Positions 3,903-17,731 of a stretch of DNA of 64,000 bases are shown here, piece by piece. The translations under genes and the position numbers were made by a program. The notes below the pieces were generated by a model. It saw only the letters and a list, made by a program, of their open reading frames with translations. It was not told the DNA's origin and did no database searches. How positions within the stretch are numbered: position 1 is the stretch's first letter; each line of letters begins with the position of its first letter. The stretch is from the NCBI GenBank assembly GCA_026129095.1, contig JAHCIT010000002.1, positions 310,001-374,000 of the forward strand. Direction: 5' to 3'. This stretch comes from Deltaproteobacteria bacterium. Its GTDB lineage: Bacteria > JAGRBM01 > JAHCIT01.

Positions 3903-3999
3903 TATAAATCCATTTTATTTCTCATCTTACCCGCCGGGGGAGGAAAGCCCCGGCCAAGCGCAAGAATAAAACAGGAATATGTTCTGGGAGGAGAATGTC

Positions 4000-6156
4000 G
4001 TGCTGAAAAAAACATTTATACCGGCGGCAGCCGGAGTCCTGGCGGTTATCTGGGTGCTGGCCAGCTGTGGTGACACCGCCAGCGTCACGATCGAAGGCAT
4101 CGAGGGCCAGGAAGACATCTACATGGAGGAGGCCAGCGATGCGATGGCCTACGACCCGACCGCGACCTCGTATTCCGGTACGGTTGCCTACTCCAATCCG
4201 AATGCGCTCCTGGGGAGCAAGCGGGGCGGTTCGCCCCTGTGGGACTGGTGCTACGGCAAGCCCGACAGCGCCATCCTGCCGCCTGATCCCCGCACGCAGG
4301 TCCAGCCCGGAGTGAGCGACGGCCGCGCTGTCCACTTCAACGCCTTCTGGAAGGACTGCCATGTGGACGAAGCCGCCGTTAAGGAGGCTGGCCACGCCAA
4401 GACCTGCGGCGAGCTCCGCCAGCGGTTCAACCGCGGCGACGAGCTGCTGCTCACGGGCGGAGCCAAGGTGGGCGCCCTGTTTTCCGGCGACAATCCCATG
4501 TCCCTGGAGGCCGGCTTCGGCATCGCGACCTTCACCGCCGCCCAGTTCAACAACGTCTGGAAGATCTGGGGCAGCCACCTCTGGCGCCCGGACAACTTCG
4601 ACCTCCTCGTGAGCGAACGTTACGGTTCGGGCTTCAAGACCGGCAGCAATCCGTACCCGAAGCCGGGCGAGGATCCCAACCGGACGAACGGCGGCACCGG
4701 CAAGCTGCCGGAGATGTTCACCCAGCTCCGCGATCCAAAAACCGGCAAATGGACCGGCCGCATCGGGATCACCTGTCACGCCTGCCACAGCGGTGTCGTT
4801 GGCAACACGCTCACCCACGGCGGCGGCAGCAGCCTGGCGGATCTCAACCTGTTCCTGCGCGACATGCTGCCGCTGGGCTATCTCGCCTCGTTCGCGGTGA
4901 TCGCCAACCTCAACCACACCCGCGGCACCAACAACGCGAGCGATATCAACCTCGCCTTCATCTTCCCCGACGAGAAGCTCCTCACACCGTCGGAGTTCTT
5001 CGGTGTCCTCACGTCGGGCACTTCCGCCGGCATGGACACTCCCGCCTGGTGGAACATGGGCCACCGCCCCGTGAAGTTCGCGGACGGCGTGTTCCCGATG
5101 GATGCCCCGCGCGTCGATATGGTGTTCTACACCCCCTTCTTCGGCCTGTTCGGCGGTCTCCTCGGTAAGATCAGCGAGGCAGGGCAGGACTGGATGCGGG
5201 CGAACGGTCCGCCGCTCAACACCTGGATCGAGAGCCTGAAGGCCCCGGTCTACCCGCTCGCCGTCAACAAGACGCTGGCCGAGCAGGGCGCCGTGCTGTT
5301 CCACACGCTCGACATGTGGGACCCCACACGGAAGAACCCGATTCCCCGCCCGCAGGGCAACGGCTCCTGCGCCGCGTGCCACGGGGCCTATTCACCGAAG
5401 TTCGTGAACGACCCCACGTTCCTCGTGAGCCCGGAGCTGGAAGGCATCGCCAGCTACATCGTTCCGCAGAACATCATCGGAACCAACCCGGTGCGGTGGC
5501 AGGTCAACAACGAGTCCGTGCAGAAGGCCGGAGCCAAGAACTTCTTCGGCTATCCGACGACCTACGGGACCGAGAACGACTGCGGCCCCCAGAACCAGAA
5601 GCGCCTGCGCGGCGACCGGGAACTGGGCTACCTCGCACCGCCGCTCTATGGCGTGTGGGCGACCGCCCCCTACTTCCACAACGGCTCGGTGCCGAACGTG
5701 TGGGAGGTGCTCAAGCCCGCCGACCGCAAGCCCATCTGGCGCCGCAAGTCCAAGCCCCAGCCCTCATGGAAGCTCGGCCAGCTGAAGAACGTCATCATGG
5801 GTTTCGACACCGACATCGCCCGCGCGTATGACCCGGTGAAGATGGGCTGGAAATACGACACCGTCGCCTGCAAGTGGCGAACCCTGCTGAACCCGTCGGT
5901 GACGCCGTACATCAACTGCGACCCGAACGACGAGTACAATGACCCGCTGTTCCAGATGATCCTGAACCCGCTGTTCTCGAACATCATTCTCGCCTGGAAC
6001 ATACTGTTCCCGCCGATTCTCAGCGATTCGCACATGGAAGATCGCAAGATCTTCAACACCCACCGCTACGGACAGGGCAACAAGGGCCACGAGTTCAACT
6101 CGGTGCTCACCGATGCCGAGCGGCTCGCCATCATCGAATACCTGAAGACACTGTAG
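4000..6156 (+). CDS. Dihaem c-type cytochrome lipoprotein, RoxA-like oxygenase/peroxidase superfamily
   Basis: I place the start at the GTG at 4000 because GGGAGGAG precedes it by six bases; an in-frame ATG at 3979 would put that motif inside the gene. The 718-residue protein begins with a lipoprotein signal ending in LASC. It has two CxxCH haem sites, CHACH (259-263) and CAACH (457-461), about 200 residues apart. It also has the APYFHNGSVPNVWEVL segment (about 557) typical of the MauG/dihaem peroxidase superfamily. Length and haem spacing fit rubber oxygenase RoxA, which cleaves polyisoprene to oxo-aldehydes, better than the much shorter cytochrome c peroxidases. Other members of this superfamily are uncharacterised, so substrate is open. 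It would sit in the periplasm or on the outer membrane. Confidence 0.75.
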   Translation: MLKKTFIPAAAGVLAVIWVLASCGDTASVTIEGIEGQEDIYMEEASDAMAYDPTATSYSGTVAYSNPNALLGSKRGGSPLWDWCYGKPDSAILPPDPRTQVQPGVSDGRAVHFNAFWKDCHVDEAAVKEAGHAKTCGELRQRFNRGDELLLTGGAKVGALFSGDNPMSLEAGFGIATFTAAQFNNVWKIWGSHLWRPDNFDLLVSERYGSGFKTGSNPYPKPGEDPNRTNGGTGKLPEMFTQLRDPKTGKWTGRIGITCHACHSGVVGNTLTHGGGSSLADLNLFLRDMLPLGYLASFAVIANLNHTRGTNNASDINLAFIFPDEKLLTPSEFFGVLTSGTSAGMDTPAWWNMGHRPVKFADGVFPMDAPRVDMVFYTPFFGLFGGLLGKISEAGQDWMRANGPPLNTWIESLKAPVYPLAVNKTLAEQGAVLFHTLDMWDPTRKNPIPRPQGNGSCAACHGAYSPKFVNDPTFLVSPELEGIASYIVPQNIIGTNPVRWQVNNESVQKAGAKNFFGYPTTYGTENDCGPQNQKRLRGDRELGYLAPPLYGVWATAPYFHNGSVPNVWEVLKPADRKPIWRRKSKPQPSWKLGQLKNVIMGFDTDIARAYDPVKMGWKYDTVACKWRTLLNPSVTPYINCDPNDEYNDPLFQMILNPLFSNIILAWNILFPPILSDSHMEDRKIFNTHRYGQGNKGHEFNSVLTDAERLAIIEYLKTL

Positions 6157-8102: not shown

Positions 8103-8522
8103 TTACTGGTTGATGACCGGCGCAGGGCCTTCCGAAGCGGCCTTGAGCGCCGCCCGCAGGGCCTCTTCCAGCGTTGATCCCAGCCGTGCATGGCCGCGGA
8201 ACACGACCGCGACGGCCTTCATCTGGGTCGTGCGGTTCTGCTGCGAGCGGAGGAAGATCGGCTCCACATAGATCACCTCGTTGCCCACGATGAGCGACAT
8301 CGTATGACCGCGGATCACATCCGCGCCCATGCGGTTCCACCACGAAAGCTGGCGGCTGATATCCGGGTTCTGGTCGATGGCGGCGTCCGCCTGCTCGGGG
8401 CCCGGATAGAAGCGGCCCTTGGGCACCATCAGCATGGTGATCTTTCCGTAGTCGTCGCCGTCCTGGTAGGCGATGGGCAGGCCGCGAAGGTTCAGTGCCT
8501 TCTCGCCGGTGAACGGCATCAT
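8103..8522 (-). CDS. Detached C-terminal segment of a UPF0182 protein
   Basis: The 139-residue product starts MMPFTGEKALNLRGLPIAYQ and continues with NGDxYG-like, PKGRFYPGPEQADAAIDQ, ISRQLSWWNRMGADVIRG and a VEPIFL segment, ending in GSTLEEALRAAL. This series is what I recognise as the conserved end of UPF0182 (PF03699) proteins, normally part of the same chain as the large protein encoded just upstream. Here it begins five bases after that gene's TAA, in the -1 frame. Reading its frame upstream of the ATG gives EGAVSL, which resembles the family's usual lead-in, so the ancestral join seems to have been broken by a frameshift. It may be made by reinitiation, with GAGAAGG as a distant ribosome-binding site, or the gene may be damaged. 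Confidence 0.75.
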   Translation of the reverse strand: MMPFTGEKALNLRGLPIAYQDGDDYGKITMLMVPKGRFYPGPEQADAAIDQNPDISRQLSWWNRMGADVIRGHTMSLIVGNEVIYVEPIFLRSQQNRTTQMKAVAVVFRGHARLGSTLEEALRAALKAASEGPAPVINQ

Positions 8523-8527
8523 GAGGC

Positions 8528-11500
8528 TTACTGCACCTTCTCGGACGATTCGGGCAGCGTGCCGCCCGTCTCGAACAGGTAGTTGATCGGCTCGGCCGAG
8601 AAAGTGATCGCCTTGCCGTTGTCCATGACCGCTCCGAGCACCTCGTCGGCGTCGTCCATCATATCTTCCATGTTGAAGAAATACATCGGATCCCGCATCT
8701 GGTAGTAGATGTAGACGTCATCGAACTGCACGTGGAAGAACTGGACCGGGTAGGTCAGCTGCGACCGCACCGCGGCCGGCATCTCCTTCCCGTCGGTGAA
8801 CAGGCCAGGGTAGATCTTCGACCAGGTTTCGATCAGCGGCGAGTCCGATATCTTGTAGAACTTCACCTCGCCGCTGTAGGCGTCCACGGTCGCCTTCACC
8901 GAGTCCTCGATGTAGTTGGCCCAGCGGTGCGGCCGCGGGTAGCGGGTGCGCTCGTCGGACTTGTCGCCGAGGTCGCCCATCCAGCTGTTCGGGTAGGCAT
9001 TGCTCGTCGTCAAGCCGTTCAAGACCCACGTGATGCGGTCACCGTTGGCGAACGCATGGCCGTTCGTGTCGTAATAGAGGAACGGCGCGATCCGGTTCAG
9101 GCGCTCCACCGGAACCCGGTTGTAGTGGACGCGGGTCTCGCTGGTAATGAGGCCGCTGAACAGCACATCGAAGAACTGCCCGCTCTCCCAGCCGAAGGCG
9201 AGCCGCTTGACCAGCGAATCGATGTGGACACCGGTGCCGTCGCCCGGCGGCAGGATGAACTCGGCCCGGTCCTGTTCGGTCGGGTAGTCCAGTTCCTTCA
9301 TGTTCTTGACGTTCGTGTAGGCGATCGTGCCGGAACCCTCGCCATAGTAAACGCGGGGGTTCTCGACCTTGAGAACATCGTAAGCCGTCTGGACGGGGAT
9401 GTTCTTCGACACGTAGACCGGGTCGCCCTCAGGCGTGCTCTGCCCGGCCTTGCCCATCACCAGGCCATAGCCGTGGGTAAACAGCATGTACTGCTGCCCC
9501 CACCAGGCGAGCCAGGGCTGAGGCTCCACCAGCGGAACCTCGCGGATGGCGCTGAAGAACAACTGCTTCTCGCCGTCGATCGCGTAGCGGACCGAATCGA
9601 TGCCGAGGAAGTTGTAGTAGGCGCGCAGTTTCTGCTGCTGCCACAGGATTTCCTCGGTCGGCCCGTAGATGATCTTGTCGCCCTGGGTCTTGAGGATGCG
9701 GAGCGAGTGCTGCGGATCGAGCTGGGCTTCCAGATAGGAAGTGAAGCCCGGCCACAGCGGCGCATTGCGCACCGCCGGGCTGTTGAGGATCTCTTCAGCC
9801 GTGGGGATCGGGTCGCCGTGCCAGTTGGGGATGAACTCCTTCTGGGTGACCTTGTTCAGGTCGAACCCCTTGCGGGTCGCCTCGATGTGGTTCCCAAGGT
9901 GTCCGAGCTGGATAACCGGCTCGTTCGGGCGGACATAGATGTTGCCCTTGATGCCGACGAGGCCCTTGAAGCCGAAGTCAGCCAGGATGAGCAGGAACAC
10001 GAGGTTCCGCAGCTTGATCTGTCCCTCGCGCCAGCCCTCGGGCGGCTGCGCCTCTCCGGCAACACGGTTCAGGTTGTTCAGGTACATCACCACGGCCATG
10101 GTAATTCCGAGAATCACGAGCGTCGTGACGTAGATGTAGTTCAGGTTGGAGAGCAGCCCCTCGGTGTCGAGGTAGGTGGCGCCCTGCTTGATGACGTGCT
10201 TCTCGTTGGCCTTCAGGAGGATGTTGTAACGTGACAGCCATTCCCCGGCAGCGAGAATCACGCCCCAGATCGTCAGCGGAATGAGGACCGGACGGGTCGC
10301 CAGGCGGCCCGCCAGCTGCCAGAGCCGCGAAAGGCCGGTGCCGGAAAGCTGGCGGCCCTCGTTGGCCCACACCATGTAGGAGCAGCCGATCGCCGACAGG
10401 ACGCCCGCGGTCGTTCCGAACAGGAGCGCATACCAGATCGTCCAGTAGTTCGACAGCTCGTAGACGTAGAAGCCGAGATCGTTGCCGAACACCGGGTCGG
10501 CCTCGCCGAACGGCTTGCCGCCGAACAGCAGGAAGTCGCGGTACTCAAGGCACAGGAAGTAGGCGCCCACTGAACCGGCGATCAGGGCCAGGTTGATGAT
10601 GAACCGGCGCTGCCTTGCGGTGACGGGGTTCATGAACGCTGGCAGGGCGACCGAAACGGCCGTCATCAGGAAGCCGATGATAAAGAGCTTCGCGCCCATG
10701 CCGAAGTTGGTCCAGAAGACCGATTCGTGTCCGACCGCTTCCAGGAACCACTTGTCGAGCAGCACGATGCTCAACCGGTCAAGGAAGAACAGGCCGGTAA
10801 AGATCAGGCCATAGACCGAGAACCGCTCCCACAGGGCGAACGCGTGGGGAGCGCGCTCCAGCGGCACCTGCGGGAAATCGGCCGGTGCATCCTGCTCGAC
10901 CGACGCGCCAGGCTGGTCCTTGGGTTCGGCCTTGCCGTCGCTGCGGCGGAACGCCGCCAGGATCTCGGCCAGCGTCGTCTTGACCGAGCCTTCCCAGCCG
11001 TTCGTCACGAGGAAGTGGAAGTTGCCGGCCGAGAACAGCCGCACGCCCAGGTGCAGCATGGCGATGGTCATCGACTCGGGGAATCCCATGCCGCCCACGT
11101 ACATGGCGGCCGCCAGCGCCCACTCGCTCTGGCCGATACCGCCCGGCGTGAACCGGACGAGCCGTGCGATGTGGTAGGCGATGATCGCCATCAGGGTCGT
11201 GTTGTAGTCCGGCATGATGAACACATGGGTCGCCGTGAACCCCTGCGCAATGAAGTAGAGCGCGCCGTCCTGGAGCTCGAAGGCTGCCAGCGACAGGAAG
11301 CCCAGCCACACGGCCGTGATCGGCTGGCCCGCCACCAGGCGGATGCCCTGCCGGGCGCGGTCAAGGAAGTTCTTGACGCCGCCGGTGTCCTCGGTTTCGG
11401 GGTAGGTACGGCGCACAAGGCCGTAGGCCAGCCCAAGGATGAAGAGCGCCCAGAAGATCTGCGCGAACCACTCGCTCCAGCCGAAAATGGCCAGACCGAC

Positions 11501-12031
11501 GAAGCCGAACACCATGATCTCAAAGATGTCGAACAGGCCCTGGATGAACACCACGGACTTGGCGCGGTCCAGCGGGACGCCCTCGTCCTTCAGCGCGAGC
11601 GCGGCGGCCGTGTTGCCGAAGCCGAACGGGGCGACCTTGTTCCAGGACAGGCTGTAGCAGTAGGCGCGCAGGTTCTGGCCGAGGTTGGTCTTGAGACCCA
11701 GGAGCTTGGCGATCCCGTGGAACTGGAGCGCCTTGAACGCGAACACGAAGAAGAAGATGGCGACGACGAGCAGGATGATGTCCCAGCGGACCGGATCCTG
11801 CGACTGCAGGTAGTACTTGGGATCCGGAATGTAGGTGTATCCGGCGTTGCGGTCGTGGTACTGGATGATGCCCGCCTTGATCATCAGGTCGAGGAGCCGG
11901 GTGTTGGCGAGGAAGTTCCAGTATCCGCCGTGGTAGACCAGCGTACTGAGGAGCGCGATCATCGCCCCCAGGGACAGGACAAGTCCCGCCACATAGTTGC
12001 CAGTGCGTTCTTGGTTGCGTGGTTCGCTCAT
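8528..12031 (-). CDS. Fusion of a flippase-like (UPF0104/PF03706) domain and UPF0182 membrane domain
   Basis: The 1167-residue membrane protein has two parts. Residues 1 to about 350 form a multi-helix module with RFTPGGIGQSEWAL near 290-303, the PGGIGxxE hallmark of the lysylphosphatidylglycerol synthase TM/flippase-like family. A polar linker (about 355-395) follows. The remainder matches UPF0182 (COG1615): further helices, then GGKPFGEADPVFGNDLGFYV near 505-525 and a long soluble domain of the type seen in actinobacterial and cyanobacterial members. I do not know this fusion from described proteins. The UPF0182 part ends early, at LPESSEKVQ, and its last conserved block is encoded separately at 8103. 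AAGGAG lies 12 bases before the ATG. The function of UPF0182 is unknown. Confidence 0.8.
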   Translation of the reverse strand: MSEPRNQERTGNYVAGLVLSLGAMIALLSTLVYHGGYWNFLANTRLLDLMIKAGIIQYHDRNAGYTYIPDPKYYLQSQDPVRWDIILLVVAIFFFVFAFKALQFHGIAKLLGLKTNLGQNLRAYCYSLSWNKVAPFGFGNTAAALALKDEGVPLDRAKSVVFIQGLFDIFEIMVFGFVGLAIFGWSEWFAQIFWALFILGLAYGLVRRTYPETEDTGGVKNFLDRARQGIRLVAGQPITAVWLGFLSLAAFELQDGALYFIAQGFTATHVFIMPDYNTTLMAIIAYHIARLVRFTPGGIGQSEWALAAAMYVGGMGFPESMTIAMLHLGVRLFSAGNFHFLVTNGWEGSVKTTLAEILAAFRRSDGKAEPKDQPGASVEQDAPADFPQVPLERAPHAFALWERFSVYGLIFTGLFFLDRLSIVLLDKWFLEAVGHESVFWTNFGMGAKLFIIGFLMTAVSVALPAFMNPVTARQRRFIINLALIAGSVGAYFLCLEYRDFLLFGGKPFGEADPVFGNDLGFYVYELSNYWTIWYALLFGTTAGVLSAIGCSYMVWANEGRQLSGTGLSRLWQLAGRLATRPVLIPLTIWGVILAAGEWLSRYNILLKANEKHVIKQGATYLDTEGLLSNLNYIYVTTLVILGITMAVVMYLNNLNRVAGEAQPPEGWREGQIKLRNLVFLLILADFGFKGLVGIKGNIYVRPNEPVIQLGHLGNHIEATRKGFDLNKVTQKEFIPNWHGDPIPTAEEILNSPAVRNAPLWPGFTSYLEAQLDPQHSLRILKTQGDKIIYGPTEEILWQQQKLRAYYNFLGIDSVRYAIDGEKQLFFSAIREVPLVEPQPWLAWWGQQYMLFTHGYGLVMGKAGQSTPEGDPVYVSKNIPVQTAYDVLKVENPRVYYGEGSGTIAYTNVKNMKELDYPTEQDRAEFILPPGDGTGVHIDSLVKRLAFGWESGQFFDVLFSGLITSETRVHYNRVPVERLNRIAPFLYYDTNGHAFANGDRITWVLNGLTTSNAYPNSWMGDLGDKSDERTRYPRPHRWANYIEDSVKATVDAYSGEVKFYKISDSPLIETWSKIYPGLFTDGKEMPAAVRSQLTYPVQFFHVQFDDVYIYYQMRDPMYFFNMEDMMDDADEVLGAVMDNGKAITFSAEPINYLFETGGTLPESSEKVQ

Positions 12032-12415: not shown

Positions 12416-13678
12416 ATGCGTGAACTGATAGCTTATTCGGCCATGGCGGCCACGGTGGGACTGACGGTCATCCGGCCCGCGATCACCCCCTCGTGGCGCG
12501 TGGGGCCCGCCACGGCCGCCGGGTTCGGCGCGCTCGTCATGCTCGCCGCCGGCGTCGTCGGCTGGCGGGATGTCGCCGCCTCCGGGGCGCTGCACTGGCG
12601 GCCATTCGTCACCATTGTCTCGATCATGACCGTGGCCGCCGTGGCCCGGGAAACCAGCGTCATGGACGCCCTCGCCCGCCGGATCTTCGCCTCGCCCGTT
12701 CAGACGGCCCACGGCCTTTTTGTCCGGGTGTTCCTCTTCAGCGCCCTCGTGTCGTCGATCCTGAACAACGACGCGATGGTGCTGCTGGTGACGCCGCTGG
12801 TGATTGCCCTTGTCCGGCAGCGGTTCCCCGGCCGCGAGGAACTGGCGGTCCCGTTCGCCTTCGCCGTCTTCCTGTCGATCGGCGTGGCGCCCTTTGTCGT
12901 CGCCAACCCCATGAACATGATCGTGGCGAGCTATGCCCACCTCAACTTCAACCAGTACGCCAGCTGGATGATCCCGGTGGCCGTGGCCGGATGGGCGGTC
13001 GTGCTTCCGCTGGCGGCCTGGTTTTTCCGGCGCGAACTGGCGGCAATGGCCCCGGAGGGCGGGGAGCCCCCCGCCTCCGAAACCGCCATGGACGGCTCCC
13101 AGAAGGCCATTGTCGCCCTGCTGCTGGCGATGGTCGCAGCCTACCCGGTCGTGGCGCTGATTGACGGCCCGAGCATCTGGCTCGTCGCCTTTGCGGGCGC
13201 CGCCGTCGCCCTCGCCCTGTCGGTGCGGTCGGCGGCCGGTGTCCGCCAGACGGTGATCTACAGCGTGGACTGGAACATTCTCGTGTTTCTCCTCAGCGTC
13301 TACGTGCTGGCGGTCGGCATGCGGAATGTGGGGCTCATTGATTTCATCGCCTCGTTCTATTCCACCATGAACCTCGCCGTCATCGGTGGCGTCTCGGCGC
13401 TGGGCTCGGCGCTGGTGAACAACCACCCGATGGCGATCATCAACCTGCTGGCGCTCGAGGCGGTCCCCGAAGCCGGCCGCCGGGAGATCCTCGCCGCGCT
13501 GGTGGGCGGCGACATCGGGCCCCGCCTGCTGCCCATCGGCTCGCTCGCCGGGCTCCTGTGGATCGAGAGCTGCCGCCGGTCGAAGGTGGCGATTCCGCTC
13601 CGGACGTTCATGGCCGTCGGGATTCTCGTCACCGTGCCCAGCATGGCCGTTTCGCTTTTGATTCTGTGGCTGCGCTGA
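12416..13678 (+). CDS. ArsB/NhaD-type ion transporter family membrane protein
   Basis: The 420-residue protein is strongly hydrophobic, with about 10-11 predicted membrane helices. Two repeat halves each carry the discontinuous-helix Asn signature of the ion transporter (ArsB/NhaD) superfamily: SILNNDAMVLLVTP in the first and SALVNNHPMAIINLLALE in the second. Family members export arsenite or antimonite, or exchange Na+ for H+. There is no arsR, arsC or arsA nearby, so the arsenite role is not supported by context. No good ribosome-binding site is seen for the ATG at 12416. A small nuclease-fold gene follows 71 bases later. Confidence 0.75.
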   Translation: MRELIAYSAMAATVGLTVIRPAITPSWRVGPATAAGFGALVMLAAGVVGWRDVAASGALHWRPFVTIVSIMTVAAVARETSVMDALARRIFASPVQTAHGLFVRVFLFSALVSSILNNDAMVLLVTPLVIALVRQRFPGREELAVPFAFAVFLSIGVAPFVVANPMNMIVASYAHLNFNQYASWMIPVAVAGWAVVLPLAAWFFRRELAAMAPEGGEPPASETAMDGSQKAIVALLLAMVAAYPVVALIDGPSIWLVAFAGAAVALALSVRSAAGVRQTVIYSVDWNILVFLLSVYVLAVGMRNVGLIDFIASFYSTMNLAVIGGVSALGSALVNNHPMAIINLLALEAVPEAGRREILAALVGGDIGPRLLPIGSLAGLLWIESCRRSKVAIPLRTFMAVGILVTVPSMAVSLLILWLR

Positions 13679-14277: not shown

Positions 14278-14615
14278 AAACCACCTTCCCCTGATTTTGT
14301 TTGTTTTAAGATGCCCGGCAGCCAGGAAAACCGGGCAAAACAGCCGGTTTTAGCTGTCAAGCCATTAAAATTATTGGCTATTTTTGGTTTTCCGCTGATC
14401 CCCTGAATGGGCCCTGGGCTCCTTTTCGGGTAATGGAACCGGCCGGGATTTCCCCCAATCCCCAAGGAAAGTGCCAAAATCGGGCACATCCCGCCTTTTT
14501 CTCTTGAACCTGGCCGCCGAATCAGGCTAGCTTCCTTACTGCAAATTAAGGAACCACAACCTCCGGCCGAAAGCCATGGTGGCAAATGCCGGAGGGGGTC
14601 AGGGAGCACGGTAAC
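14278..14615. other. 338-bp intergenic region without a supported gene
   Basis: It lies between the SNase-like gene and the beta-helix gene. A GCCCGG...CCGGGC hairpin (about 14309-14336) lacks a T run. A weak AGCCA...TGGCT stem with ATTTTT follows at about 14361-14386 and might end the upstream transcript. GGGAG near 14602 is the ribosome-binding site of the downstream gene. Confidence 0.3.
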
Positions 14616-16625
14616 ATGAAGATCAATACTACTTTCGGCAAGATGCTAATTCTGTTCGCCTTCGCCATCGGCATGATGGCGATGCCTTCGGTGGCCAGCG
14701 CGGCGACCTTCACGGTCGACAGCAAGCTCGACACCTTCGACGACGACCCGGGCGACGGCATCTGCGACGACGGCGACGGCAACTGCACGCTGCGCGCAGC
14801 CATCGAGGAGGCCAACGCCAGCAGTGGCCGCGACGCGATCATCATCGGCGTCACCGGCACGATCGTTCTCTCGAACGGCAGCTTCAACTGCATCGTCGAG
14901 GGGCTCAAGATCATCGGCCCCGGCTCGGGCGTCCTGACGATTGACGTGGACGAAACCGACGATGGCCCCCTGTTCGGCTTCGACTCCGCCGGGGATCCCA
15001 GCGATCCGTGCGATGGCGATGACTCCGGTAATGGCGGCGCCCACGACTTCGTCCTGAAGGGCCTCACCATCGAGAACCTGGACGCGTGGCCGGCCGTTTA
15101 CGTCGCCAACACCGACTACCTCAACCTGATTGACCTCACGGTGACGAACAGCAATGTCGAAGAGGGCGCGACGGATGACTATGCGCTTGCCGCGTTCGTG
15201 GCGATTGACGGCAGTGCCGACCTCACTGATATCGTCATCACCGACAGCACCGGCACGACCGTCACGGACGGCAGCAACTGCCGTGCCGAGGGTTCGGGCA
15301 TCGCGGTGGCGGGTGAGGCCGGCACCGTGAACATGATGAACATCACCGTCACGGGACTGGAGCTGGATACCATCGGCGTCAACTGCGCCCAGGATACCGG
15401 CATGGCTGCCATCAGCGTGACCGGCGGCAACAAGAAGGTGACCATCACCAACGCGCTCATCGACTCCAACACCGTGACATGGCAGCACAACAACAGCTGG
15501 CGTGAGGTTGGCGGCCCGGGCATCGTGATCAACGGCGCCGACAAGGATGTGACGCTCGATAACGTCACTGTCACCAACAACACGTTCCTGGATGCCAATA
15601 CGGGTGGCAATAGCAGTGCAGAGGACCGCCACGGCGGCGCCGGTCTCTATATCGGCAGCGGATCGCCGACGGTATGGGTCCTGGATTCCTACATCGGCAG
15701 CAACGAATCCGAGATCAACGGCGGCGGCGTCCTGATCTCCGGCGGCTACACCACCTTCGTCAACACCACGATCGAGGGCAACAGCGCCGTGGGACACTAT
15801 GAAGACCAGTCGGATCCGGATATCGGCGGCGGCGGCGGCATCTTCATCACCGGTGCGCCGAAGCGCGTGGACATCATCCAGAGCACGATCCGGGACAACA
15901 CGACCGAGAACGACGGCGGCGGCATCCACATGCGCGGCGCGTCGAGCACCGAGCAGTACCTGAACATCCTCAACAGCTCGATCGCCAACAACTCGGCCGA
16001 AGGCAACGGCGGCGGCATCCACCGCTACGCCGGCACGGCGACGCTGATCCACACCACGGTTGACGGAAACTCGGCCGAGGGGATCGGCGGCGGCCTGAGC
16101 GACTACTATACCAACAGCGACACCCCGCCCGACGGCTGGCCCCGCGAAAGCCGCGGCATCTCCTACCTGGCGAACTCGATCCTGTCGGGCTCGTCCGACA
16201 GCGACACCTCCTCCGACTGCGTGGGCAACGTGAAGTCGTTCGGCGGCAGCGTGGTCGAGACGGCCGCGGAGCGGACCTGCAAGGACAGCCTGCAGGCCAG
16301 CGACCGCAAGAACGTCGCCGCGCAGGTGACGGGCCTCCAGCAGGGCGGCACGGGCCCGCAGGGCAACGCCGGCGAGATGGGTATCGGCCAGGTGCTGGCG
16401 ATCGCCGGCAACTCGCCCGCCGTGAACCTGGGCCTTGCCCAGTACTGCAACTTCTTCGACCAGCGGGGCGTCCTGCGCTCGCACAACGCCTGCGACGCGG
16501 GCGCGTTCCAGGCCGGTGGCGGCGGTGGCGGCGGCTGCGCCTCCTCCAGCGCCCCGGTGCTGTGGCTGCTCCTGGCGGCCATCGGCGGGGCGTGGGTGGT
16601 CCGGCGGCGCCGGGCGATCGCCTGA
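14616..16625 (+). CDS. Exported right-handed beta-helix surface protein with Gly-Cys C-terminal sorting tail
   Basis: I choose the ATG at 14616, nine bases after AGGGAG, rather than the ATG at 14586. The 669-residue protein has a signal peptide ending VASA. Next comes CTLRAAIEEAN, the CSLREAI-type motif that opens many bacterial parallel beta-helix adhesin-like proteins. The middle is a run of short Asn/Thr/Gly-rich beta-helix turns (NGGGVLISGGYTTFVNT and similar). The end is seven glycines, a Cys, then a hydrophobic helix and RRRRA. This matches the layout of MYXO-CTERM and GlyGly-CTERM sorting signals, implying processing and surface anchoring through the Cys region. Acidic residues dominate the first half. 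Function is probably adhesion or matrix binding (inference). Confidence 0.78.
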   Translation: MKINTTFGKMLILFAFAIGMMAMPSVASAATFTVDSKLDTFDDDPGDGICDDGDGNCTLRAAIEEANASSGRDAIIIGVTGTIVLSNGSFNCIVEGLKIIGPGSGVLTIDVDETDDGPLFGFDSAGDPSDPCDGDDSGNGGAHDFVLKGLTIENLDAWPAVYVANTDYLNLIDLTVTNSNVEEGATDDYALAAFVAIDGSADLTDIVITDSTGTTVTDGSNCRAEGSGIAVAGEAGTVNMMNITVTGLELDTIGVNCAQDTGMAAISVTGGNKKVTITNALIDSNTVTWQHNNSWREVGGPGIVINGADKDVTLDNVTVTNNTFLDANTGGNSSAEDRHGGAGLYIGSGSPTVWVLDSYIGSNESEINGGGVLISGGYTTFVNTTIEGNSAVGHYEDQSDPDIGGGGGIFITGAPKRVDIIQSTIRDNTTENDGGGIHMRGASSTEQYLNILNSSIANNSAEGNGGGIHRYAGTATLIHTTVDGNSAEGIGGGLSDYYTNSDTPPDGWPRESRGISYLANSILSGSSDSDTSSDCVGNVKSFGGSVVETAAERTCKDSLQASDRKNVAAQVTGLQQGGTGPQGNAGEMGIGQVLAIAGNSPAVNLGLAQYCNFFDQRGVLRSHNACDAGAFQAGGGGGGGCASSSAPVLWLLLAAIGGAWVVRRRRAIA

Positions 16626-16738: not shown

Positions 16739-17731
16739 GTGGCGGAATCGAAAAGACCGGTCTGGATCGGCGCCCTGTTGCTCACGGCGGCACTGGGGAC
16801 GTTGCTGTATTTCCTGGCGGCCGAGGAGGAGCCCCTTCCGGCGCCGGCTCCAGAGCCGGTCCGCATCCTTCCCGGCTCGATGCTGGACCCCGACCGGGGC
16901 AAGGAGCCTCCGGTCGAGCCGCCACTGGAAAAGGGCGAGTTTTTCCATAACCCCGGCGACAAGAACACCTTCTACGGGAGCCCCCGCAACGACCACATGA
17001 CCGGCACCGACGGCGACGATTCGCTCGCCGGCGGCGACGGCGATGACCGGCTGGAGGGCGGCAAGGGAAACGACATGCTGAAGGGCGGCCGGGGGAACGA
17101 CTACCTGGACGGGGGCGAGGGCGACGACCACATCATCGGCAGCGACGGTGACGACCACATCGAGGGCGGCGAGGGCAACGATGTCGTCCGGGGCAGCGAA
17201 GGGAACGACACGATCAATGGCGGCCCCGGAGACGACGTGCTGAACGGCGGCGACGGCGACGACACGATCGACGGCGGCCCCGGCAATGACGAGCTGTACG
17301 GCGAGGAAGGCAACGACGTGCTGACCGGCGGCGAGGGGAAAGATATCCTGGATGGCGGGGACGGCGACGACATCCTCTCCGGCGGCCCCGGCAACGACAT
17401 CCTTTCCGGCGGTGACGGGAATGACCGGCTTCAGGGAGGCCCCGGCGCGGACGAACTGTTCGGTGCGGGCGGCGCGGACGTTTATATCTACGCGGCCGGG
17501 GACGAAGTGGGTGGCCCGGACCGGATCAAGAACTTCAATCCCAGGGAAGGGGACGTGCTGGACCTCGCCGGCGTCATCGCCGGGCGCGGACCGGCCCGCG
17601 AGGCCTTGCGGATGAACGGCTCCATGCTCCAGATCCGCGCCGGACAGGACGAGTGGATAGACCTCGTTGACCTCGGCCGGGGCAACCACATCCTGGACGA
17701 GCTGATCGACAGCGGCGCGATCCGGTACTGA
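16739..17731 (+). CDS. Membrane-anchored RTX (haemolysin-type Ca-binding) repeat protein
   Basis: The GTG at 16739 follows GGGAGG by nine bases. The 330-residue protein has a single hydrophobic helix near residues 8-26, a Pro-rich linker, and about 18 consecutive nonapeptide RTX repeats of the GGxGxDxUx type (about residues 80-245). A C-terminal domain with DRIKNFNPREGDVLDL follows, the usual cap of RTX proteins. Calcium would fold the repeats into a beta-roll. No enzymatic domain is present. RTX proteins are normally secreted by type I systems without an N-terminal signal, so an N-terminal anchor and the absence of nearby ABC-exporter genes are odd. It may be a calcium-dependent envelope structural protein. 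Confidence 0.85.
   Translation: MAESKRPVWIGALLLTAALGTLLYFLAAEEEPLPAPAPEPVRILPGSMLDPDRGKEPPVEPPLEKGEFFHNPGDKNTFYGSPRNDHMTGTDGDDSLAGGDGDDRLEGGKGNDMLKGGRGNDYLDGGEGDDHIIGSDGDDHIEGGEGNDVVRGSEGNDTINGGPGDDVLNGGDGDDTIDGGPGNDELYGEEGNDVLTGGEGKDILDGGDGDDILSGGPGNDILSGGDGNDRLQGGPGADELFGAGGADVYIYAAGDEVGGPDRIKNFNPREGDVLDLAGVIAGRGPAREALRMNGSMLQIRAGQDEWIDLVDLGRGNHILDELIDSGAIRY
16990..17480. repeat. 27-bp-period tandem repeat encoding RTX nonapeptides
   Basis: The DNA repeats a 27-base unit of the type GGCGGCGACGGCGACGAC with variation. The repeats code for the GGxGxDxUx motifs of the RTX protein and are not identical enough to suggest recent expansion. Confidence 0.75.

Follow-up and report, generated by a model that had tools for sequence, protein, structure and literature searches.

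The window analyzed here, a 64,000-nucleotide stretch of DNA, encodes a protein in which a flippase-like PF03706/UPF0104 module is fused to a UPF0182 membrane module, and this linkage is the constant feature of a rare UPF0182 subfamily. The subfamily comprises 18 gene copies in 17 genomes from several bacterial phyla; 17 of the copies are linked with this flippase-like partner (11 as fusions and 6 as near-touching genes), and one is interrupted by a contig end (G407). The fusion, its recurrence, and the coupling of the two modules are well supported. Because the modules are always fused or touching in this branch of UPF0182, they are suggested to form one membrane machine. UPF0182 is widespread, yet searches of the literature and the PDB found neither a biochemical or functional study of the family nor a structure of it. 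A branch whose members are invariably linked to a domain that has a relative of known, lipid-bound structure provides a testable start.

The fusion open reading frame (ORF) occupies 8528..12031 on the minus strand, starts with ATG, and encodes 1167 residues. In profile searches with each half scanned alone, residues 1 to 394 (10850..12031) matched PF03706 with an E value of 4.1e-22 (79.5 bits; cutoff, 33.4), the match spanning residues 78 to 330, and residues 395 to 1167 matched the UPF0182 profile, PF03699, with an E value of 2e-116 (390.4 bits; cutoff, 27). Both halves therefore match their own families far above the cutoffs, as the preliminary description had proposed, and the motifs that it named, T295-P-G-G-I-G-Q-S-E303 and FGEADPVFGNDLGFYV, were confirmed. 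The N-terminal module fell under the cutoff of TIGR00374, a narrower model than PF03706 (31.3 versus 43.2 bits), and a profile search of the fusion protein found no match to DUF2156, the aminoacyl-phosphatidylglycerol synthase of MprF. The N-terminal helices are not a standard part of UPF0182, as ordinary members (∼900 to 1000 aa) lack the module. A linker (residues 346 to 396; 10844..10996), predicted to be cytoplasmic and modeled with low confidence at residues ∼364 to 384, leads into the UPF0182 seven-helix membrane domain (residues 397 to 699; 9935..10843; PF03699 profile positions 6 to 352), which is followed by a large domain (residues 700 to 1167; 8531..9934; profile positions 356 to 679) predicted to lie outside the cytoplasmic membrane; all of these features are on the minus strand. 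The window genome (G000) carries one UPF0182 gene and, besides the fusion, one PF03706 gene.

The C-terminal piece of UPF0182 (profile positions 706 to 770), on which the preliminary description is silent, lies outside the fusion ORF, which covers profile positions 6 to 679. It is encoded in another frame, 5 bases past the TAA stop codon, by a downstream ORF of 139 aa (8103..8522, minus strand; PF03699 positions 709 to 770, 3.4e-11). At the junction (KVQ-TAA-gcctc-ATG; 8522..8531, minus strand), the frame is one base off that of the relatives. Relatives with an intact 3' end carry the C-terminal UPF0182 domain within the same ORF, and in the nearest relative (G001) the complete profile is covered by a single uninterrupted protein of 1340 aa. 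The downstream ORF shares 66% identity with the C-terminal end of the G1187 fusion, and its codon score favors coding. Because the frames differ by one base, the split may have arisen by a recent frameshift or by misassembly, or two separate genes may truly exist here.

A scan of genome contigs yielded 14 loci from Planctomycetota, Chloroflexi, Acidobacteria, Gammaproteobacteria, Saprospiraceae, and Deltaproteobacteria (taxa taken from record titles). The 18 copies combine these loci with whole-genome searches of the same genomes, the nearest relative, and an additional genome, G1187, found in the phylum of G409. The fused copies are those of G000, G001, G397 (two copies), G398, G399, G403, G404, G408, G409, and G1187; the gene is divided between two contigs in G403, G408, and G409, one of which holds the fused start in each case. 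The adjacent pairs (G400, G401, G402, G405, G406, and G410) are spaced by a few bases or overlap briefly and always run from UPF0182 to PF03706, opposite to the order within the fusion. Cultured Thiohalocapsa halophila DSM 6210 carries such a pair, which makes experimental tests practical. Of the genomes searched, 1 of 400 from Chloroflexota and 2 of 210 from the T. halophila order carry a subfamily member, as do 2 of 284 from the G409 phylum and 1 of 294 from the G397 phylum. No fusion was found on plasmids: 34 plasmid records gave partial matches only, and in the ten listed the alignment is confined to UPF0182.

Several minor features of these loci were recorded. The matched parts of two fused genes, L039 (G404:C31) and G409:C925, contain one in-frame stop codon each (TAA and TGA, respectively), possibly through sequencing errors or decay. 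A small gene precedes the UPF0182 gene at three loci (L035:7682-8128, L036:9409-9825, and L037:1318-1770); the L035 and L036 copies have no Pfam match, and the L036 and L037 copies have no NCBIfam match. Near L033, L034, L035, L039, L041, and L043 lie genes for large secreted proteins with FG-GAP, He_PIG, beta-helix, or other repeats, from families too varied to be counted as partners.

Fused and adjacent forms share common descent. The flippase-like domains of both forms fall into a single clade that excludes the 20 other PF03706 proteins in the tree (support, 100/99), and within this clade the ten fused domains group together (85/86). The UPF0182 parts are likewise separated from ordinary UPF0182 as a single clade (100/100), in which the adjacent forms group at 98/99; monophyly of the fused forms was not rejected (p-AU, 0.54). 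One ordinary sequence (L075), with an absurdly long branch in a quick UPF0182 tree and probably a spurious ORF, was left out of the careful tree. A single switch between the fused and adjacent states fits both trees; the root is placed differently in the two rooted trees, which are compatible with fusion first or fission first.

Ordinary UPF0182 proteins provided the comparison. UPF0182 scored above the cutoff in 65 of 389 diverse genomes. With the window genome and its nearest relative set aside, none of the remaining 63 had a UPF0182 gene adjoining PF03706, the closest pair on one contig lying ∼9 kb apart, and UPF0182 was rejected as a general PF03706 partner. Among 100 loci from UPF0182 searches, a PF03706 gene of the linked clade occurred within 1.5 kb at two (L127 and L128), both subfamily members, and an ArsB-like gene (see below) occurred at L127 only. 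A shared operon partner for ordinary UPF0182 was also rejected: no Pfam family appeared more than three times among 97 neighbors, and no lipid gene recurred. Since ordinary UPF0182 never adjoins PF03706 and has no recurrent neighbor, the clue toward lipids is limited to the subfamily and does not extend to the family. The preliminary description had read the fusion as a sign that the two modules act together and as a clue that UPF0182 handles lipids or lipid-linked substrates. The former idea is strongly supported by the 17 of 17 determinable copies that are fused or adjacent and by the agreement of both gene trees on a single fused/adjacent split; the latter, taken for UPF0182 in general, is not supported. 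The survey that it suggested, for the same fusion or for adjacent UPF0104 genes, was positive in the rare subfamily (17 of 18 copies) and negative in ordinary UPF0182.

The subfamily and the rest of the family (PF03699; PRK00068, PRK02509, and PRK12438) have the same order of seven-helix, large outer, and C-terminal domains, and they have ∼60 residues in common. The subfamily is nonetheless a divergent clade (∼390 bits, versus up to ∼1000 for ordinary members) that is always linked to PF03706 and has an acidic cluster of its own, and in the window copy the C-terminal domain is split off. Four genomes (G398, G406, G408, and G409) carry an ordinary, unlinked UPF0182 gene alongside the linked form. 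Family members include Rv0064 and Rv3193c of M. tuberculosis. Ordinary UPF0182 genes were also seen on plasmids of Haloferax, Paraburkholderia, Bradyrhizobium, and Rhodococcus (e.g., NZ_CP039140.1).

An AlphaFold model of the fusion (mean confidence, 64) placed most membrane parts at 75 to 94 and long stretches of the outer domain below 50, too low to define how the two modules meet. The modeled helices follow the order TM1, TM2-3a-3b-4, TM5, and TM6-7a-7b-8, succeeded by the seven UPF0182 helices; the N-terminal order is that of Subdomain 1 of MprF, a PF03706 protein with published lipid-bound structures (PMC8131360). The top four PDB fold matches were all MprF, with a probability of 1.00 and low whole-model TM-scores (0.16 to 0.17 by query), and no PDB chain matched the UPF0182 or PF03706 clade profile by sequence. 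Within the PGGIGQSE motif (residues 296 to 303; 11123..11146, minus strand), P296, G297, G298, G300, Q301, and E303 are invariant in 15 sequences. The gate of RtMprF is formed by Glu280 and Arg304 (PMC8131360). Judged by motif, E303 is the candidate equivalent of Glu280, and, judged by motif spacing, R331 (11039..11041, minus strand) is the candidate equivalent of Arg304 that would form the gate salt bridge with E303; Arg occupies this position in 14 of the 15 sequences and is replaced in L033. A loop between TM1 and TM2 (residues 34 to 83; 11783..11932, minus strand; consensus WN.LANTRLL.LLI.GGI..YHD...GFI.GVP.LKYY..SQDPV.W) is characteristic of the subfamily and is kept in fused and adjacent partners, with W38, R45, L47, I51, G54, Y58, D60, G64, and P80 invariant in the 15 sequences.

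The fusion and MprF (PDB 9j8q, 7duw, and 6lvf) thus share the fold of Subdomain 1 and the PGGIG..E motif, with R331 of the fusion as the candidate for the gate arginine, and in each a flippase module is joined to a second functional part. Unlike MprF, the fusion matches neither Subdomain 2 nor the DUF2156/GNAT synthase and has instead the UPF0182 seven-helix and large outer domains; because these replace Subdomain 2 and the synthase, the second part would face the outside, whereas that of MprF faces the cytoplasm. Other PF03706/UPF0104 fusions (COG0392), such as AglD, also join PF03706 to a partner acting on a presumed lipid-linked cargo (PMC5898192), but AglD has a glycosyltransferase as the partner and its PF03706 domain is C-terminal, while here the partner is UPF0182 and PF03706 is N-terminal. 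GpgF, a UPF0104 protein and predicted flippase, is encoded with enzymes for its presumed lipid in the gpgSDF operon (PMC12713373); it differs from the fusion in standing alone, with no link to UPF0182.

The seven long UPF0182 helices were modeled mostly at confidences of 80 to 94. The separate model made for a complete UPF0182 protein was weak (mean confidence, 59), with the outer domain again poorly defined, and gave no significant PDB fold match. Polar residues that the outer domain has in common with ordinary UPF0182 include R830, E831, H853, D915, R972, R977, D988, K1046, E1122, and D1123. The subfamily-specific acidic cluster of the outer domain (H1100, D1104, D1105, D1126, D1127, D1129, and E1130; 8642..8734, minus strand), including the histidine, is invariant in all 14 subfamily sequences compared and is not conserved in ordinary UPF0182. 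With TM3a-3b and TM7a-7b treated as re-entrant, as MprF implies, the flippase-like module is predicted to start and end inside, the linker to lie inside, and the UPF0182 domain to end outside. Loops grouped in this way have ∼24 Lys/Arg residues in 172 inside positions and 11 in 157 positions of short outside loops; with those hairpins counted as crossings, the numbers are 18 and 17. As the UPF0182 domain is predicted to end outside, joining the genes in operon order (UPF0182-flippase) would put the start of the flippase on the wrong side; judging from the loop charges, the observed flippase-UPF0182 order would preserve both topologies.

Upstream of the fusion, on the plus strand, lies a candidate third partner, a divergent ArsB/CitMHS-like transporter of 420 aa (12416..13678; PF02040, 3.5e-34). 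Such a gene adjoins the linked pair in eight genomes (G000, G001 with two copies, G400, G401, G402, G404, G406, and G409). In G402 it is cut by contig ends: a piece encoding the last 45 residues adjoins the PF03706 gene, and a second contig carries the remainder. These adjacent genes are the only strong PF02040 matches in the eight genomes; in the other genomes, PF02040 matches are weak or absent. By phmmer, the window protein matches ArsB (PDB 10tp) over nearly its whole length (4.5e-35), but it misses the curated ArsB cutoffs (146.4 versus 415 bits for TIGR00935 and 176 versus 457 bits for PRK15445), and the three ArsB-like proteins scanned scored 144 to 240 bits against subfamily cutoffs of 415 to 760. 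Because these scores are so far below the ArsB subfamily cutoffs, the neighbor is taken as an ArsB relative and not as an assured arsenite pump.

Tentatively, and at a little under an even chance, we propose that the two modules act together as a single unit of the inner membrane: the flippase-like part would carry a lipid outward, and the outer domain of UPF0182 would receive or process it. By analogy to MprF, from which the idea of a lipid substrate is drawn, the N-terminal module with its Subdomain 1 fold would most likely take the lipid from the inner leaflet, and the head group would pass through the putative E303/R331 gate. The UPF0182 seven-helix module would take the position of the second flippase subdomain of MprF, and on the outside its large domain would receive, bind, or chemically process the lipid or the lipid head group. 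In the roughly half of genomes that have it, the ArsB-like secondary transporter would probably supply or remove an ion or small anion for the same process. A lipid cargo is reasonable to infer for the linked subfamily; as a suggestion for UPF0182 as a whole it is weak. A more elaborate version, in which the flippase module, UPF0182 with its acidic outer site, and the ArsB-like transporter form a three-part system that would carry a lipid to the outside, alter the head group there, exchange the small ion released or needed, and have spread horizontally among distant bacteria, is fairly improbable; if real, such a membrane system would be previously undescribed, and its acidic outer site would be new.

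The flippase-like module could instead be a mere membrane scaffold or regulator of UPF0182, with the pair cooperating and no lipid being moved. The fusion does lack MprF Subdomain 2, which shapes the outer cavity in MprF (PMC8131360), the candidate gate arginine is replaced in one member, and lipid transport is unproven for many PF03706 proteins, GpgF among them (PMC12713373). However, the subfamily retains the core fold and the PGGIG..E motif and, apart from that one member, the arginine, and since such motifs need not survive in a scaffold, we consider this explanation unlikely. The strong ArsB-like genes found only beside the pair in eight genomes, together with the invariant histidine of an acidic cluster that could bind metal, might point to a unit whose cargo is a small ion or anion instead of a lipid and to which the ArsB-like gene belongs as a related partner. 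This seems quite unlikely, as the ArsB-like gene is missing in about half of the pair-bearing genomes and the N-terminal module is folded like a lipid flippase and not like a known ion carrier.

Two further explanations carry still less weight. A role for UPF0182 in polyamine metabolism draws on its presence in a spermidine gene cluster of Leptospirillum, a context said to recur in many organisms (PMC7231039); the absence of any recurrent family among the 97 neighbors of ordinary UPF0182, and of polyamine gene families among the scanned neighbors of the linked pair, makes it very unlikely. That the fusion is a chance joining or an assembly artifact with no function is hardly credible: the subfamily is rare, most of its members come from metagenome-assembled genomes, and the window copy is split near its 3' end, but the fusion recurs in 11 copies across several phyla with mostly uninterrupted frames, and a cultured bacterium carries the adjacent pair.

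Three other genes of the window, all on the plus strand, were noted apart from the proposed inner-membrane lipid unit. The gene at 3979-6156 encodes a RoxB rubber dioxygenase (NCBIfam equivalog model, 1055.8 bits; cutoff, 900). The CSLREA, choice-of-anchor Q, and MYXO-CTERM sorting domains of a secreted protein encoded at 14586-16625 give a hint that the window genome has a system for protein sorting like that of Myxococcota. At 16739-17731, a protein with calcium-binding-type repeats is encoded, for which matches to RTX/serralysin repeat regions were well under the cutoffs; similar repeats occur near the fusion in G1187 (L169:4599-4940).
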